This document shows positions 3,412 through 54,932 of a stretch of 54,985 bases of DNA, one piece after another; position 1 is the first letter of the stretch, and every line of letters starts with the position of its first letter. The DNA comes from Deltaproteobacteria bacterium (GTDB taxonomy: Bacteria; Desulfobacterota; Dissulfuribacteria; Dissulfuribacterales; UBA3076). Below the pieces are notes generated by a model. It saw nothing but the letters and a program-made list of their open reading frames with translations. It made no database searches and was not told where the DNA came from. Location of the stretch: contig PQXD01000001.1 in NCBI GenBank assembly GCA_003194485.1, positions 235,252-290,236 of the forward strand, in the 5' to 3' direction. The translations under genes were made by a program, and so were the position numbers.

Positions 3412-3606
3412 GTAAATATCCGGTGAACCCGTGGTCCACTGTGGAAGTTGCCATCCGTGCCCTGCCGCAGGAGCGGTTTGCCTTTTGCAGGGTTTCGACC
3501 GCGGGCCGGATTGCACTGCCTCTCCGGTCCGCAATGAGTGAGCTTTGAAACCCGGAAAAAGGTAACCGCTTCAAGGCAGGATATAACGGGTTCACCGAAT
3601 ATTTAC
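3412..3606 (-). repeat. Palindromic repeat family A, copy 1 (195 bp, complete)
   Basis: Bounded by near-perfect 20-bp inverted termini: GTAAATATCCGGTGAACCCG at the left, and its complement with one change (TTCGG) at the right. The interior is an imperfect foldback: GAGCGGTTTGCCTTTTGC... on one side matches GAAGCGGTTACCTTTTTCC... on the other. A 60-70 codon open frame beginning MNPLYPALKRLPFSG runs through the minus strand in copies 1, 2, 3 and 6. It is frameshifted in copies 4 and 5, so coding is doubtful. Strand given is that of this frame. Confidence 0.85.
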
Positions 3607-20113: not shown

Positions 20114-20297
20114 GTAAATATCCGGTGAACCCGCGGTCCACTGTGGAAGGTTGCCGTCCGTGCCCTGCCGCAGGAGCGGTTTGCCTTTTGCAGGGTTTCG
20201 ATCGCGGGCCGGATTGCACCGCCTCTCCGGTCTGCGATGAGTGAGCTTTGAAACCCGGAAAAAGGTAACCGCTTCAAGGCAGGATATAACGGGTTCA
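20114..20297 (-). repeat. Palindromic repeat family A, copy 2, inside the trp operon
   Basis: Starts with GTAAATATCCGGTGAACCCG and follows copy 1 closely through AACGGGTTCA, but lacks the last bases of the right terminus (the sequence turns into AACGAAAAAC). It lies between trpG (upstream) and trpD (downstream) on the trp transcript and should fold into a long stem there. The minus-strand open frame MNPLYPALKRLPFSG is intact. Confidence 0.85.
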
Positions 20298-20391
20298 AAC
20301 GAAAAACTTAATTAAGCCTGTTTCTTTATCTTTTCCCATTCAACATTCGATGTTCATTTTTTTGGGCGCTTATACCTCAAATTCTGCACTT

Positions 20392-43549: not shown

Positions 43550-43712
43550 GTAAATATTCTTATGAACCCGTTATATCCTGCCTTGAACCGGTTACCTTTT
43601 TCCGGGTTTCAAAGCTCACTCATTGCGGACCGGAGAGCCAGTGCAATCCGGCCCGCGATCGAAACCCTGCAAAAGGCAAACCGCTCCTGCGGCAGGGGGC
43701 ACGGATGGCAAC
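43550..43712 (+). repeat. Palindromic repeat family A, copy 3 (interrupted by element B)
   Basis: Begins GTAAATATTCTTATGAACCCG and matches the other A copies to ACGGATGGCAAC, where element B starts. The right terminus is not found after B; B is followed directly by sequence leading to the second dehydrogenase. The frame MNPLYPALNRLPFSG is present. Confidence 0.85.
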
Positions 43713-43914
43713 CGTTCACTGGCAGGGGATATTTCTTTGAACAGTTTAACGGAAGCCCCCGTAGTTTTCTTGGCTTTTGCTGTGGGGGAAACCCCGGCTC
43801 CTGAGCGCAGCGAAGGAGAACGGGGAGGGGGCAAGACTCCCCCATGTCAAAAGCCTTAAGAAAACAAGGGGCTGAAGTGTTAAGTGAAAAGAAATATCCC
43901 CTGCCAGTGAACGT
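43713..43914 (+). repeat. Palindromic repeat family B, copy 1 (about 202 bp)
   Basis: Terminal inverted repeats of about 26 bp are perfect: CGTTCACTGGCAGGGGATAT... at the left and its complement at the right. Subterminal arms GTTTTCTTGGCTTTTGC and GCAAGACTC...AAAAGCCTTAAGAAAAC also pair, making the element a foldback. It replaces the right part of A copy 3. Confidence 0.85.
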
Positions 43915-43937
43915 TTTGCGAATTAAGGATAGCTAAT

Positions 43938-44999
43938 ATGTCTAAAATGAAATGCGCTATTTTTTACGGGCCCATGGATGTAAGAATAGAGAAAGTGGAA
44001 ATACCTGTTCCAACTGATGATGAGATATTAGTAAAAGTAAAAGCAGCTCTTACATGTGGAAGTGATTTAAAAACTTACAGACGCGGTCATCCAACCATGA
44101 TTAAGCCTCCTTCACCATTTGGACATGAATTTTCCGGAGAGGTGGTGAAAATCGGCAGGAATATTAAAAGTAAAATTAAGGTCGGGGATAGAATAGTATG
44201 TGCCAATACTGCTCCCTGTGGTTATTGCTTTTATTGTAGATTGGGTAGGGAATCTATGTGTGAGGATTTGATTTATTTAAATGGAGCATATAGCCAGTAT
44301 ATAACTGTTCAAAAGAGAATTGTAGAGAAGAATACATTTATAATACCCGATGATATTTCTTTTGAGGAAGCTGCCCTGATGGAACCACTTGCATGTGTTG
44401 TTCATGGCATAGAGGAATCCGGAATTATGATGGGGGATAAAGTAGCAATAAATGGGGCAGGTCCTATCGGTCTTATGTTTGTAAAATTAGCATGTCTTAA
44501 GGGTGCTCATGTTATTGTTTCTGATTTAAGCAAAGATAGACTTAAAGCTGCGAAGAAAATGGGTGCCGGAGAGACCATTCAAATAAAAAAAGGTATTAAT
44601 CAGGTGGAAGAAGTTAAATGTAGAACCGAAGGCGGCAGAGGTGTCGATGTAGCTATAGAGGCTACAGGAATTCCTGATGTTTGGGAAAAAACGTTGAAGA
44701 TGGTAAGAAAAGGCGGTACAGCTAATTTGTTTGGGGGTTGCAGTCCGGGGACAACTGTTTCCATTGATACTGCACTTATTCATTATAATGAAATAACTAT
44801 AAAAGGGATTTATCACCATACACCTCTTTATGTAAAGAAAGCTTTTGAACTTATTACAAATCGTACAGTAGATGCAAGGCACTTTATAACCGATACCGTA
44901 CCTTTGGATGAACTTATTCCAACACTTGAGAAGGTGGGAAGGCAGGAAGGAATAAAATACAAAATAGATCTTGATTACACTTCAAAAAATCTGAGTTAG
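43938..44999 (+). CDS. Zinc-dependent medium-chain dehydrogenase (AT-rich, second of pair)
   Basis: 353-aa MDR-family dehydrogenase. Catalytic zinc site in LTCGSDLKTYRRGHP and FGHEFSGEVV, structural zinc in CGYCFYCRLGRESMC, nucleotide fold INGAGPIGLMFVKLACLKGAHVIVSDLSKDRLKAAKKMGA. It resembles L-threonine/sorbitol dehydrogenases, but substrate cannot be set. Like the gene at 42468 it is unusually AT-rich. The pair, separated by repeats A and B, was probably acquired together and then split by repeat insertion. AAGGATAG precedes ATG 43938. Confidence 0.9.
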   Translation: MSKMKCAIFYGPMDVRIEKVEIPVPTDDEILVKVKAALTCGSDLKTYRRGHPTMIKPPSPFGHEFSGEVVKIGRNIKSKIKVGDRIVCANTAPCGYCFYCRLGRESMCEDLIYLNGAYSQYITVQKRIVEKNTFIIPDDISFEEAALMEPLACVVHGIEESGIMMGDKVAINGAGPIGLMFVKLACLKGAHVIVSDLSKDRLKAAKKMGAGETIQIKKGINQVEEVKCRTEGGRGVDVAIEATGIPDVWEKTLKMVRKGGTANLFGGCSPGTTVSIDTALIHYNEITIKGIYHHTPLYVKKAFELITNRTVDARHFITDTVPLDELIPTLEKVGRQEGIKYKIDLDYTSKNLS

Positions 45000-45000
45000 T

Positions 45001-45243
45001 GCGGTTTCCCCCACAGCAAAAGCCGGGAAAACTGCGGGGGCTTCCGTTAAACTGTTCAAAGAAATATCCCCTTCCAGTGAACGGTTGCCGTCCGTGCCCT
45101 GCCGCAGGAGCGGTTTGCCTTTTGCAGGGTTTTGGGTAGCGGGCCGGATTGCACTGCCTCTTTCGGTCTTGCGATGAGCGAGCTTTGAAACCCGGAAAAA
45201 GGTAACCGCTCCAAGGCAGATAACGGGTTCACCGGATATTTAC
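45001..45243 (-). repeat. Partial element B joined to family A copy 4
   Basis: 45001-45083 is one arm of element B (GCGGTTTCCCCCACAGCAAAAGCC...CCAGTGAACG). It joins at GTTGCCG to an A element that runs to GGATATTTAC (45243) with the CGGTGAACC-type terminus. A small insertion near 45140-45170 shifts the open frame seen in other A copies. The B segment begins one base after the dehydrogenase stop codon. The rest up to 45367 shows nothing recognisable. Confidence 0.8.
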
Positions 45244-45658: not shown

Positions 45659-45774
45659 AACTCACTTCCCCTAATACACCAATATCTTGATTATTCCGCT
45701 ATTCAAAAAAGGCTGTTTACTCCAAATTCAGCAAGTTGGCAAGATACAGAAAGAGGAGAGCCGCGGATGGCAAA

Positions 45775-46232
45775 CGTTAACGGGCAGGGGATATTTCTTT
45801 TCACTTAACACTTCAGCCCCTTGTTTTCTAAGGCTTTTGACATGGGGGATGTCCTGCCCCCTCCGCATTCGCCTTACGCTGCGCTTGCGGCGATGCGGTT
45901 TCCCCCACAGCAAAAGCCAAGAAAACTACGGGAGCTTTCCGTTAAACTGTTCAACCCAAATTATGCACTTCAAACACCGAACAATAAGGAACAAATAGAA
46001 AAATTAGTAAGTTATGGTGTATTGTCCAGTTTGGAATGTTCACCCAAAAGGTGCATTCCACCGGAGTTAAAAATTGTTCGGTATTTGAAGCCACAAGGGG
46101 CAGCCAATTTTACCAAATCTGCTTTGTTGTCAGGCACTTGAAGTACAAAAGTACGTCTGCGTGCCTTCCGCCTCGCATCTTTGGCAAACTTGGCTGTTGC
46201 ATAATTCGGGTTCAAAGAAATATCCCCTGCCC
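45775..46232 (-). repeat. Element B copy interrupted by element C
   Basis: 45775-45954 reads as an inverted B element (CGTTAACGGGCAGGGGATATTTC... to CGTTAAACTGTTCAA). After C (45955-46210) the missing B end continues as TTCAAAGAAATATCCCCTGCC. Removing C and one TTCAA restores the B sequence seen at 45050-45080. This shows that C inserted into an existing B. Confidence 0.85.
45955..46210. mobile_element. MITE-like element C, copy 1 (256 bp, TTCAA target duplication)
   Basis: Ends CCCAAATTATGCA and (complement) CCCGAATTATGCA, 12 of 13 bases identical, flanked directly by TTCAA on both sides. The copy at 51462-51717 has the same length and is almost identical. It carries no transposase frame, so it would need a protein supplied elsewhere. 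Target duplication length could be five or six bases. Confidence 0.88.
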
Positions 46233-46246
46233 GTGGACGGTTTGTG

Positions 46247-46480
46247 CAGTGGACTTAAACTGATCACAGGATGCTTCTTCTGGAAACGATTTGCGTTAGC
46301 CCTGTAGTTTTCTTGGCCTTTGCCGCAAGGGAAACCCCGGCTCCGGAGCGCAGCGAAGGAGAACGGGGAGGGTCCCATACTGCAAAGGCTTCAGAAAACA
46401 AGGGGCGAGAGCATGTTGGAAGAAGAAGCACCCTGTGATCAGTTACCAGTGGACCACGGACGGGTTCACCGAATATTTAC
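46247..46480. repeat. Element D copy 1 with the terminal piece of an A element
   Basis: D (about 46247-46450) has facing ends CAGTGGACTTAAACTGATCACAGG and a complementary right end (CCTGTGATCAGTTACCAGTGG), with a foldback interior. It is followed by GGACCACGGACGGGTTCACCGAATATTTAC, one end of an A element, which finishes at 46480 inside the 3' end of hemB. Confidence 0.8.
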
Positions 46481-47837: not shown

Positions 47838-49655
47838 TTAATAGCACGTACGAATAAGTCGGTTGATGTACAGCTCCGGATTGTCCACTGCTTCAGCCGA
47901 AATATTGAAGACATTCTGTGCGGTCTTTTCCCTTATGAGAGTGAGACCGTATTCAAGAATATTACACAATCTCTCACACTGGGTATATAGATTGGAAGAA
48001 TCGTCCAGACAACTATACAGCAAGCTGTCCACCGCGTCTTCTTCTAAGTTAATCCTCAGGCCGCAACGTCTAAAGAAAGAGGCCTCATAACTCTTTATCT
48101 GTTCTATCCATATTTGTACCTTCTCACTGGCCTCTTTAAAGTCCAAATCTTCTTTCAGGGAGAGATGGGCTACCAGGTCTAACCTCTTAGGTGTGAGCTT
48201 AAGCTTGGAGTCTTTCCAATTGGGCAACTCCTCTTGCTCAATACGGGAAATCAGGATCTGTTTTTCCTCGGCAAGCATGGCCTGATACCTTCTCAGCCTT
48301 GCCTCGTCATTTAGATTCCCCAAAAGCCTTTGAAGCTCTTCTTCCGGATTATTAACCATACTGCCGGTCACAACCAGGAAAGATATGCTGATTGAGGGCA
48401 GCTTCTTTTCAAAGGGCAGCAGTACCCTTTCCACCACGCTTACAAGGGCCCTTGCCCCTGTATGTTCCTGATAGGCCTGACGGGCAAGGAGCCTCAGGGC
48501 ATCTTCTTCGAATTTGAGGTCTATTCCATAGGCCCTGAAGTCCTGTCTCTTGCTCATGATAACAGGGTTGTTCGGATTACACAGTATTTCAAAGAGATCC
48601 TGCTCCGAGAGTTCTTCCAAAATGGCAATAACAGGGAGTCTCCCAACGAACTCGGACTCAAAGCCGTATTCGACAAGGTCCTGTGGCTTTACGTGCCGCA
48701 GCCATTCTATCTCATCCTGTGTATCGATCTCTGCTCCAAAGCCTATACCCTTCTTTCTGAGCCTGTTTCTTATTATTTCGCTGAGTCCCTCAAAGGCGCC
48801 GCTCACTATGAATAATATACCGCGCGTATTGAGGCTGTGCTTCTCTCTCTTTCCGGTCCTGCGATATCTTTCTATGGCCTCTATCTGGGAAATAGGATCA
48901 TGAGGGGTACGGATATCCACCTCGGTCTCCTCAAGAGGTTTTAATAAGGCCCTCTGGACCCCGGCCCTGGAGACATCCGGACCGATTATGTGGTGAGAAG
49001 ACGCAATCTTGTCAATTTCATCTATATAGACAATCCCGTACTGTGCCCTTTCAAGGTCACCATCCGCTTCCTGGACCAGGTCACGGACCAGATCCTCTAC
49101 GTCTCCCCCCACATAACCTGTCTCACTGAACTTTGTGGCATCGCCCTTTACGAAAGGTATGCCCAGTTTTGCGGCTATCAGCTTGATAAGATATGTCTTT
49201 CCAACCCCGGTAGGACCTATGAGGATTATATTATTTTTTATGTTTCCGATCGAATGGGGATCTTTCCCCTTTTCTTGAAGATATGTGATCCTGTTAAAAT
49301 GAGTACATATCTTTGTTGCCAGGATGGCCTTTGCCATGTCCTGCTTTACTACATATCTGTTCAGGTAGGCCTCGAGCTCCTCCGGCTTGAGATTAAATCT
49401 TATTTTCGGGCCCTTCCCGGAATCAGTCCCCTCTTTCCTGTCGGTGCCGTCAGGCTTTGTCTGCCAGGGAAAGACCATCTGTGACACTACCCGTATTCTG
49501 CCTCCATACTTTTCGGAAAGATAGTCACTTATCTCCTTTTCCAGGTCCTTTTGTGATGGCAGATCCCCGGTCTTGTCAGACCTCTCGCCGGCGATATAAG
49601 GAAGTCCCGTGCCCGGATCATTCAGAGAGCTTTTCTTATTATTTTTCTTTTGCAT
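47838..49655 (-). CDS. ClpX-like AAA+ ATPase with extended C-terminus
   Basis: 605-aa AAA+ protein. After a variable N-terminus without the ClpX zinc domain come Walker A LIGPTGVGKTYL, pore loop SETGYVGGDVED, Walker B IVYIDEIDKIA, VSGAF and the sensor-2 region TGARALVSVVERVL. The IGF loop needed for ClpP docking is present in KKGIGFGAEI. The small domain (GIDLKFEEDALRLLARQAY...) is followed by a coiled segment. A second weakly similar module (GLRINLEEDAVDSLLYS...) then follows, making it about 170 residues longer than ClpX. First gene of an operon with the pseudo-receiver and hemB. Confidence 0.88.
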   Translation of the reverse strand: MQKKNNKKSSLNDPGTGLPYIAGERSDKTGDLPSQKDLEKEISDYLSEKYGGRIRVVSQMVFPWQTKPDGTDRKEGTDSGKGPKIRFNLKPEELEAYLNRYVVKQDMAKAILATKICTHFNRITYLQEKGKDPHSIGNIKNNIILIGPTGVGKTYLIKLIAAKLGIPFVKGDATKFSETGYVGGDVEDLVRDLVQEADGDLERAQYGIVYIDEIDKIASSHHIIGPDVSRAGVQRALLKPLEETEVDIRTPHDPISQIEAIERYRRTGKREKHSLNTRGILFIVSGAFEGLSEIIRNRLRKKGIGFGAEIDTQDEIEWLRHVKPQDLVEYGFESEFVGRLPVIAILEELSEQDLFEILCNPNNPVIMSKRQDFRAYGIDLKFEEDALRLLARQAYQEHTGARALVSVVERVLLPFEKKLPSISISFLVVTGSMVNNPEEELQRLLGNLNDEARLRRYQAMLAEEKQILISRIEQEELPNWKDSKLKLTPKRLDLVAHLSLKEDLDFKEASEKVQIWIEQIKSYEASFFRRCGLRINLEEDAVDSLLYSCLDDSSNLYTQCERLCNILEYGLTLIREKTAQNVFNISAEAVDNPELYINRLIRTCY

Positions 49656-49807
49656 ATCTGTACTTTATACCAGAAACCGGTTATAAGCTCAATCCCGGCC
49701 CGTCAAATCCATATTTTTGCATGTAACCGGCCCATGTGATAGCCTTAAAAAATTATGGGATAAGATTAATATATTTTTAATTTAATACAACATTCATCGC
49801 TTAACAC

Positions 49808-50407
49808 GTAAATATTCTTATGAACCCTTTATATCCTGCCTTGGAGCGGTTGCCTTTTTCCGGGTTTCAAAGCTCACTCATTGCAGACCGAAAGGGGCAG
49901 TGCAATTTGGCCCGCGATCGAAACCCTGCAAAAGGCAAACTGCTCCTGCGGCAGGGGGCACGGATGGCAACCGTTCACGGGAAGGGGATATTTCTTTGAA
50001 CAGTTTAACGGAAGCCCCCGTAGTTTTCCTGGCTTTTGCTGTGGGGGAAACCCCGGCTCCTGAGCGCAGCGAAGGAGAACGGGGAGGGGGCAAGACTCCC
50101 CCATGTCAAAAGCCTTAAGAAAACAAGGGGCTGAAGTGTTAAGTGAAAAGAAATATCCCCTGCCAGTGAACGGTCTGCACAGTGGACTTAAACTGATCAC
50201 AGGGTGCTTCTTCTGGAAACGATTTGCGTCAGCCCTGTAGTTTTGCCTTTGCCGCAAGGGAAACCCCGGCTCCGGAGCGCAGCGAAGGAGAACGGGGAGG
50301 GTCCCATGCTGCAAAGGCCTTAAGAAAACAAGGGGCGGGAGCATGTTGAAAGAAGAAGTACCCTGTGATCAGTTACCAGTGGACCACGGGTTCATAAGAA
50401 TATTTAC
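49808..50407 (+). repeat. Composite: A element containing nested B and D elements
   Basis: The outer ends are GTAAATATTCTTATGAACCC at 49808 and its complement ending at 50407. A sequence runs to 49971, B occupies 49972-50172 (ends CGTTCACGGGAAGGG and CCAGTGAACG), D about 50180-50380, and the last A bases follow. The same A-B join is seen at 43712/43713 and the same D-A join at 46450. No gene is present, and no transposase frame exists. The flanks 49656-49807 and 50408-50522 hold only the promoter regions of neighbouring genes. Confidence 0.85.
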
Positions 50408-50522
50408 CTTAACACCATTTCATAATCCTGTTTAATCAAATAACATAATCATTGCTTTCATGATTGAACAACAACCGGTGACCTTATTTATCAATTTTAA
50501 ACATTAGTAAGGAGAACTAAAA

Positions 50523-51418: not shown

Positions 51419-51461
51419 GTCCTTCTATGAATTGTGTCCGTTCACAGGTTCAATGGTTCAA

Positions 51462-51717
51462 CCCAAATTATGCACTTCAAACACCGAACAATAAGGAACA
51501 AATAGAAAAATTAGTAAGTTATGGTGTATTGTCCAGTTTGGAATGTTCACCCAAAAGGTGCATTCCACCGGAGTTAAAAATTGTTCGGTATTTGAAGCCA
51601 CAAGGGGCAGCCAATTTTACCAAATCTGCTTTGTTGTCAGGCACTTGAAGTACAAAAGTACGTCTGCGTGCCTTCCGCCTCGCATCTTTGGCAAACTTGG
51701 CTGCTGCATAATTCGGG
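51462..51717. mobile_element. MITE-like element C, copy 2
   Basis: 256 bp, ends CCCAAATTATGCA/CCCGAATTATGCA, flanked by TTCAA on both sides (51457-51461 and 51718-51722). Almost identical to copy 1 (for example CTGCTGCATAATT against CTGTTGCATAATT). The insertion point is within a run of GGTTCAA words. It lies between a possible promoter and purH. Confidence 0.88.
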
Positions 51718-51860
51718 TTCAAAGGTTCAGATACTGCCGGAGAGTGCCCGGACAGCGAACGATCCCCTGAAAGGTGAACCCAGAACCTCGAATCTCGAAC
51801 CCGTGAATGCCTACTGTTAATTAATGTCCAGTGCCTAATAACAAGGGGAGGAAACCACTG

Positions 51861-53153: not shown

Positions 53154-53160
53154 GTAATTG

Positions 53161-53230
53161 TTCAAGGGTTCAAAGGTTCAGGGTTCAAGGGTTCAAAGGT
53201 TCAGGGTTCAAGGGTTCAAGGGTTCAAGGT
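53161..53230. repeat. Tandem repeat of GGTTCAAGGGTTCAAA units
   Basis: Seven to eight imperfect GGTTCA-type units follow the purH stop. Similar GTTCAAAG words appear near 22497-22520 and at both borders of element C copy 2, so these arrays may be preferred landing sites for C. Confidence 0.85.
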
Positions 53231-53309
53231 TTACCGAAAATCTAACCAGTTGATTTTCGGGTTCTGAAAAGAAAAGCAACCCAGAACGGTGAACTCTGAA
53301 CCCGTGAAC

Positions 53310-53506
53310 GTAAATATCCTTATGAACCCGTGGTCCGCTGTGGAAGTTGCCATCCGCGCCATGCCGCAGGAGCGGTTTGCCTTTTGCAGGGTTTCGATCG
53401 CGGGCCGGATTGCACTGCCTCTCCGGTCCGCGATGAGTGAGCTTTGAAACCCGGAAAAAGGTAACCGCTCCAAGGCGGAATATAACGGGTTCATAAGAAT
53501 ATTTAC
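53310..53506 (-). repeat. Palindromic repeat family A, copy 6 (complete)
   Basis: Ends GTAAATATCCTTATGAACCCG and its near-complement finishing at 53506. Both ends carry the CTTATGAACC subtype, in contrast to CGGTGAACC at both ends of copy 1. The minus-strand frame MNPLYSALERLPFSG is open. The outer flanks CCGTGAAC and CCGTGGAC are similar and could be an eroded target duplication. Confidence 0.85.
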
Positions 53507-54808: not shown

Positions 54809-54932
54809 CTGGATATTTCATATAAGCGCAGGCGAATTTTGTGACGCAGCACAGGAGGCTCTTTTGAGCCTTCAGAGGCAAGCTGTGATCGTCTTTTCTC
54901 AAGCTATGGGTAAAAATACCACCATAGCCAGG
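54809..54932. repeat. Right arm of the 124-bp inverted repeat
   Basis: Exact reverse complement of positions 1-124. It starts 26 bp after the hydrolase stop codon. The remaining 53 bases to the window end have no partner in the window. In this orientation the CACAG...CTGTG and AGGCTC-TTTT-GAGCCT pairings make a compact hairpin. Confidence 0.9.

Follow-up and report, generated by a model that had tools for sequence, protein, structure and literature searches.

The usual view of bacterial MITEs is that each is simply what a deletion left of a single insertion sequence (IS), and IS66-family elements, as catalogued in ISfinder, generate 8-bp target-site duplications and have ends in GTAA. The repeats described here resemble prokaryotic MITEs in being short and noncoding, with terminal inverted repeats, target duplications, the termini of an autonomous IS, and high copy number, but depart from them in two respects: one MITE holds up to two others, the composite multiplying as a unit, and several families carry one palindromic core under different ends. 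A review that treats prokaryotic MITEs as non-autonomous derivatives of insertion sequences (PMC10969869) makes no mention of nesting, and a literature search for nested IS66 MITEs in bacteria, which mostly did not extend to subscription journals, found nothing direct. The outermost repeat of our set, A, has the ends and the 8-bp duplication of an IS66 element present in three related genomes, but is noncoding and has no more than about 20 terminal bases in common with that element, which in these relatives carries a DruA-domain (PF14236) gene beside its transposase. ERIC and Correia/NEMIS elements (PMC2229807) likewise form hundreds of palindromic, intergenic copies per genome; the present elements differ from them in their 8-bp outer duplications and modular, composite makeup. 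REP/BIME sequences with their RAYTs are also palindromic, intergenic, and capable of being grouped, but A differs in size, ends, and duplication and has no associated Y1 gene in the 11 loci examined. The nested MITEs described here are real and well resolved, and an IS66-type source for them is identified in relatives.

The window (the whole stretch of DNA analyzed, 54,985 nucleotides) derives from an incomplete deltaproteobacterial assembly of 2.55 Mb in 87 contigs, hereafter the home genome. The composite, 600 bp long, lies within an 867-bp gap separating two divergent genes, one encoding a ClpX-like AAA protein (47838-49655, minus strand) and the other a DsbC-like protein (from 50523, plus strand). 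Here, an A element (49808-50407) encloses two palindromic MITEs, B (49967-50178) and D (50188-50376), both on the plus strand, and each of the three has its own facing termini: perfect 20-nt inverted repeats for A (20/20; GTAAATATTCTTATGAACCC at 49808-49827 on the plus strand and its counterpart at 50388-50407 on the minus strand), a 28-nt inverted repeat of 93% for B (49970-49997 and 50147-50174), and a 24-nt inverted repeat of 96% for D (50191-50214 and 50351-50374). Between the left terminus and B is A's own interior (49828-49966, plus strand), which forms a hairpin arm in the predicted fold and is common to plain A elements (e.g., that at 53310-53506). Matches to the terminal patterns occur five (A), seven (B), and four (D) times in the window, versus zero for each in shuffled sequence. 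The initial annotation had proposed this nested arrangement, and its coordinates proved exact on the inverted-repeat check; what it had overlooked are the outer duplications of CTTAACAC, identical at 49800-49807 and 50408-50415, and the pair of CAGTGGAC copies that surrounds D (50180-50187 and 50377-50384).

Genome-wide, about 330 A termini are present in the home genome, with 73 matches to the TTAT form (GTAAATATTCTTATGAACCC) and 260 to a GG variant at ≤3 mismatches. Our census is confined to stretches around copies (about 63 paired elements plus the terminus counts) and is thus not an enumeration of every copy. Among the 63 A-ended elements whose facing termini could be paired in the fetched stretches, 30 have an exact 8-bp duplication at their edges, and 38 have one with at most a single mismatch; when the flanks were re-paired at random (2,000 shuffles), duplications at this latter stringency averaged 0.71, with a maximum of 4. 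There is no peak at any length other than 8 bp (the longest exact repeat is 9 bp, in one pair), and about 40% of pairs display no recognizable duplication. Element lengths cluster at about 195 bp (A), 395 to 405 bp (A+B or A+D), and 600 to 620 bp (A+B+D). Exact 8-bp duplications are distributed over all three size classes: plain A of about 195 bp (10 of 22), A+B or A+D of 370 to 410 bp (14 of 29), and A+B+D of 550 to 660 bp (4 of 8).

We then have, for each form, the state of the corresponding sites in related genomes, for which the joined flanks of an element served as the query for contiguous orthologous sites. The site of an A+B+D copy (L065, 608 bp) is empty in G003, where its target CTTTTTCT is present in single copy as CTTTTTTT, and that of an A+B copy (L066, 398 bp) is empty in G007, where its target AATTTGCT is single and exact. 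Further empty orthologous sites correspond to L051, L095, L009, and L118. The window's own site is without an element in G006 and G007, although the noncoding flanks there are too diverged to reveal the target. Every one of the three forms (plain A, A+B, and A+B+D) has both 8-bp duplications and empty orthologous sites and has thus transposed as a unit. The initial annotation, which had called for such a comparison of filled and empty sites, had offered movement of the composite as one unit as one of two alternatives, and the outer duplications together with the empty sites bear it out.

By these observations, A is short, is bounded by terminal inverted repeats, contains no transposase gene, is flanked by a target-site duplication of fixed length (8 bp), and is absent from orthologous sites of relatives; A, B, and D are non-autonomous DNA transposons (MITEs). 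At one mismatch, A termini number 223 in the home genome, versus 0 to 2 in each of seven congeners, a copy-number burst that is specific to the home species. One A copy (L128) has the same flanking context in G002 (L216), and therefore a few A copies predate the species split. A single genome thus displays the steps by which a composite is built, in that elements with no, one, or two inserts coexist, all three kinds with target duplications of their own, while sister species retain the empty sites.

The manner in which the inner elements came into A can be read from the joints. In plain A, the joint region is CACGGATGGCAACTTCCACAGTGGACCACGGG, and CAGTGGAC occurs once; in filled copies CAGTGGAC is on both sides of D, which in A+D and A+B+D elements sits exactly between two copies of CARTGGAC (50180-50187 and 50377-50384 in the composite). 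Bracketed in this way by an 8-bp duplication within A, D entered A by transposition: it is a MITE with its own termini that inserted at one site, duplicating CAGTGGAC. Standalone D elements exist elsewhere in the home genome. Among standalone copies, the 8-bp duplication is exact in L146 (AAATGATC) and has one mismatch in L160, L142, and L213; overall, 8 of 17 D pairs have an 8-bp duplication with at most one mismatch, some of these being the copies within A. In sister species B is a MITE in its own right: standalone copies with GTAACCG termini are flanked by exact duplications in G003 and G007 (GGTTTTTT in L209 and TTAATTCT in L212). Inside A, B replaces GCAACTTCC of plain A, and the 8-bp duplication sought around it there was not found (the best candidate had 3 mismatches of 8); B may have lost its duplication, or recombination may have made the join. 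The other alternative of the initial annotation, nesting at fixed sites, consequently stands for D, with its duplication at one site in A, whereas no 8-bp duplication marks a clean insertion of B within A; and since the composite has duplications of its own, both alternatives hold.

These joints also bear on how often nesting happened. B and D could have entered a preferred site in A repeatedly and independently, instead of nesting once with the composite then spreading, and several arrangements agree with this: there are copies with D but no B and copies with B but no D, and in L061, L137, L138, and L141 D is inserted at another joint of A, GCTCCTGCGGCAACC. We nevertheless regard repeated nesting as unlikely. 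Dozens of copies, with outer duplications of their own, have the same A+B and A+B+D joins, and the spread of a composite is enough to account for this. With a composite that spreads, D's duplication and the A-B join would have formed once, or a few times, and would then have been multiplied with each movement of A, because a transposase recognizing only the outermost A ends would carry everything between them.

A quite different account would take the 600 bp as one structured RNA, or one regulatory element, of intergenic origin that was duplicated by recombination and not transposed. As a single strand, the composite is indeed predicted to adopt a very stable multi-arm structure, with a 20-bp closing stem and three long arms (A's own, B, and D; z = −14.3). 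Furthermore, the arms of B covary: among 14 copies from three genomes, 13 pairs changed on both sides and 98.3% of cells are paired, as against 44 to 51% after the partner strand has been shifted by 1 to 3 columns, although a good part of this signal comes from the apical hairpin, which changed as one block. Such covariation is expected if the two arms of the palindrome undergo conversion, and equally if the hairpin is under selection; the former requires no RNA function. A search of Rfam 15 returned 0 matches, and insertion is evident from the target duplications, the empty orthologous sites, and the occurrence of B and D apart from A; the empty sites refute an RNA as the whole explanation, which leaves it very improbable. 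Of the two outcomes that the initial annotation had named as contrary to nesting, irreproducible boundaries and a single RNA without empty sites, neither was encountered.

As to the enzyme responsible, the initial annotation had reported that no transposase is in the window, which holds for the 38 main open reading frames tested, and it had suggested that the families may rely on a REP-type (RAYT) or an unknown recombinase. Mobilization of the palindromes by a Y1 (HUH) transposase would be in keeping with their palindromic nature and with the Y1 genes of the home genome, which comprise ten copies of one 153-aa frame, all with the same profile score, and three further genes. HUH transposition, however, is not known to create target duplications, and the combination of 8-bp target duplications and perfect terminal inverted repeats is the mark of a DDE transposase. 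Duplications of 8 bp are frequent among A elements, which at 195 to 600 bp with long perfect ends are unlike 20- to 40-nt REPs, and none of the Y1 genes in the 11 loci examined, out of 13, is flanked by A termini. Taken with the IS66-type ends of A, these results contradict a REP/RAYT-type system, which we consider extremely improbable. The 153-aa frame (IS200-like; L031 to L038 and two further places) appears to belong to a second, recently active element.

A genus-wide search for IS66 transposases recovered an element with A-type ends. In G003 (Deltaproteobacteria bacterium UBA3076), it is 2,737 bp long (L229:343-3079), has the ends GTAAATATTCGGTRAACC, and encodes an IS66 transposase (PF03050, E = 2.6e-58; split frame) and a DruA-domain protein (PF14236, E = 3.2e-46); its inverted ends (21 nt, 95%) match those of A, and this copy has no target duplication. 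In G001, an IS end, GTAAATATTCGGTGAACCC, is identical to an A variant (19/19), and the sequence flanking it is 93% identical to the IS; indeed, the A-like termini of G001, G003, and G007 are mostly ends of this IS66-plus-DruA element. A more distant member of the phylum (G290) contains an intact copy of 2,701 bp (L235:540-3240) with ends GTAAATATTCGGTAAAC and an exact 8-bp duplication, AAATAATT, on both sides, whose transposase (551 aa, 65% identical; NCBIfam IS66 transposase, E = 8e-85) is accompanied by a DruA protein of 286 aa. A thus shares the ends of the IS in three genomes (G001, G003, and G290) and has a duplication of equal length, as befits an IS66-derived MITE, although the shared termini extend for only about 20 bp. 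The DruA domain is known from the Druantia defense system; its presence beside the transposase in both L229 and L235 makes it seem a regular part of the IS.

In the home genome, IS66 is represented only by a relic, 69% identical over 800 bp, whose split transposase frame lies on two contigs, and movement of A by an IS66 transposase is therefore something that we infer there. No intact or closely related IS66 copy was found in this incomplete assembly, and plasmid records yielded no close relative of the transposase. The relic's transposase frame (L099 and L100, on contigs C34 and C59) ends in a repeat of roughly 130 bp (TATACACAGCGTCATAAG...GTCGTGTATA), at which both contigs break and which also adjoins an element of another family, E, in L144.

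From the termini that it shares with the IS, A would be a MITE moved in trans by an IS66-type transposase, supplied by an element with A's ends (IS66 transposase plus DruA-domain protein) that has probably since decayed, been lost, or gone unassembled in the home genome. That intact IS66 copies were not found there would also suit a different enzyme, a non-IS66 transposase used by the IS and the MITEs alike, but this seems quite unlikely: the transposase that acts on the ends of an IS66 element is normally the one that the element itself encodes, the ends of A match such an element in three genomes, and the 8-bp duplication was measured for an intact copy. Considered as a whole, nested MITEs with a composite that spread as a unit, and with A moved in trans by an IS66-type transposase, are very probably the correct explanation. 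The burst of copies in one species would then stand beside a source element that is intact elsewhere. The ends of B and D start with GTAA and their duplications are 8 bp; a transposase with GTAACCGNTCACNGGG ends would be their expected source, and searches returned none with GTAACCG ends.

Beneath their different ends, B, D, and two additional families, E and F, share a palindromic core, CTTTTGC...GGGAAACCCCGGCTCC.GAGCGCAGCGAAGGAGAACGGGGAGGG...GCAAAAG, or a variant of it. Family E (L143, L145, L146, L155, L158, L159, and others) comprises MITEs of about 268 bp with ends TATGACTATTGAGTTAGCTCCG, of which 9 of 11 are flanked by an exact 8-bp duplication, and family F has the ends GTATTTGATCACGGG. 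Three loci (L005 to L007) are chimeras with a D arm at the start and a B arm at the end, as would be expected if elements had recombined within the core that they share; such recombination could likewise have produced mixed arrangements such as A+D without B. It is conceivable, if somewhat doubtful, that these families form one modular superfamily, in which a single core is reassorted under several end sets (B and D nested in A, free D, E, and F) and composites can switch transposase. On this same tentative reading, new mobile composites might arise through nesting combined with exchange by recombination between cores. The system opens direct questions as to the way in which one MITE captures another, the time for which a composite remains mobile, and whether a common core lets a family change its mobilizing transposase.

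The window includes several other copies. Three are plain A elements on the minus strand: one without an exact duplication (3412-3606), one with a degraded far end (20114-20303), and one of 197 bp (53310-53506). An A+B copy on the plus strand lacks A's right end (43550-43919), a truncated A+B copy has the opposite orientation (45003-45243, minus strand), and a further plus-strand copy (45764-46480) consists of B, D, and A's right end, without A's left end. The joins are reproducible, as the initial annotation had held: A-B recurs at 43711 and D-A near 46450, and both occur at many places in the genome.

Between the two inverted A+B copies is a zinc-dehydrogenase-like gene (43938-44999), an arrangement reminiscent of a compound transposon; the outer ends of the interval (43550-45243) have no 8-bp duplication, and we therefore do not count it as one. 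Another candidate, facing A ends 2.9 kb apart on contig C12 (31920-34850), was likewise rejected, as it resolves into an ordinary gene with a distinct composite on either side and gaps in the assembly.

A 277-bp repeat, "C," with ends CCCAAATTATGCA and TGCATAATTCGGG, is present at 45941-46217 and 51448-51724, with 99% identity between the two places. The first of these lies beside TTCAA and interrupts the B element in the second A+B+D copy (45764-46480), to produce a four-family nest, and the second is located in a GGTTCA repeat; pieces related to "C" are common in all seven congeners. A 124-nt inverted repeat, 100% identical, links positions 1-124 and 54809-54932 of the window, the latter copy being at the end of contig C1 (an assembly break). 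Short tandem repeats of GGTTCAAG/GGTTCAAA occupy 53160-53236, and similar GGTTCA tracts adjoin several MITE copies.
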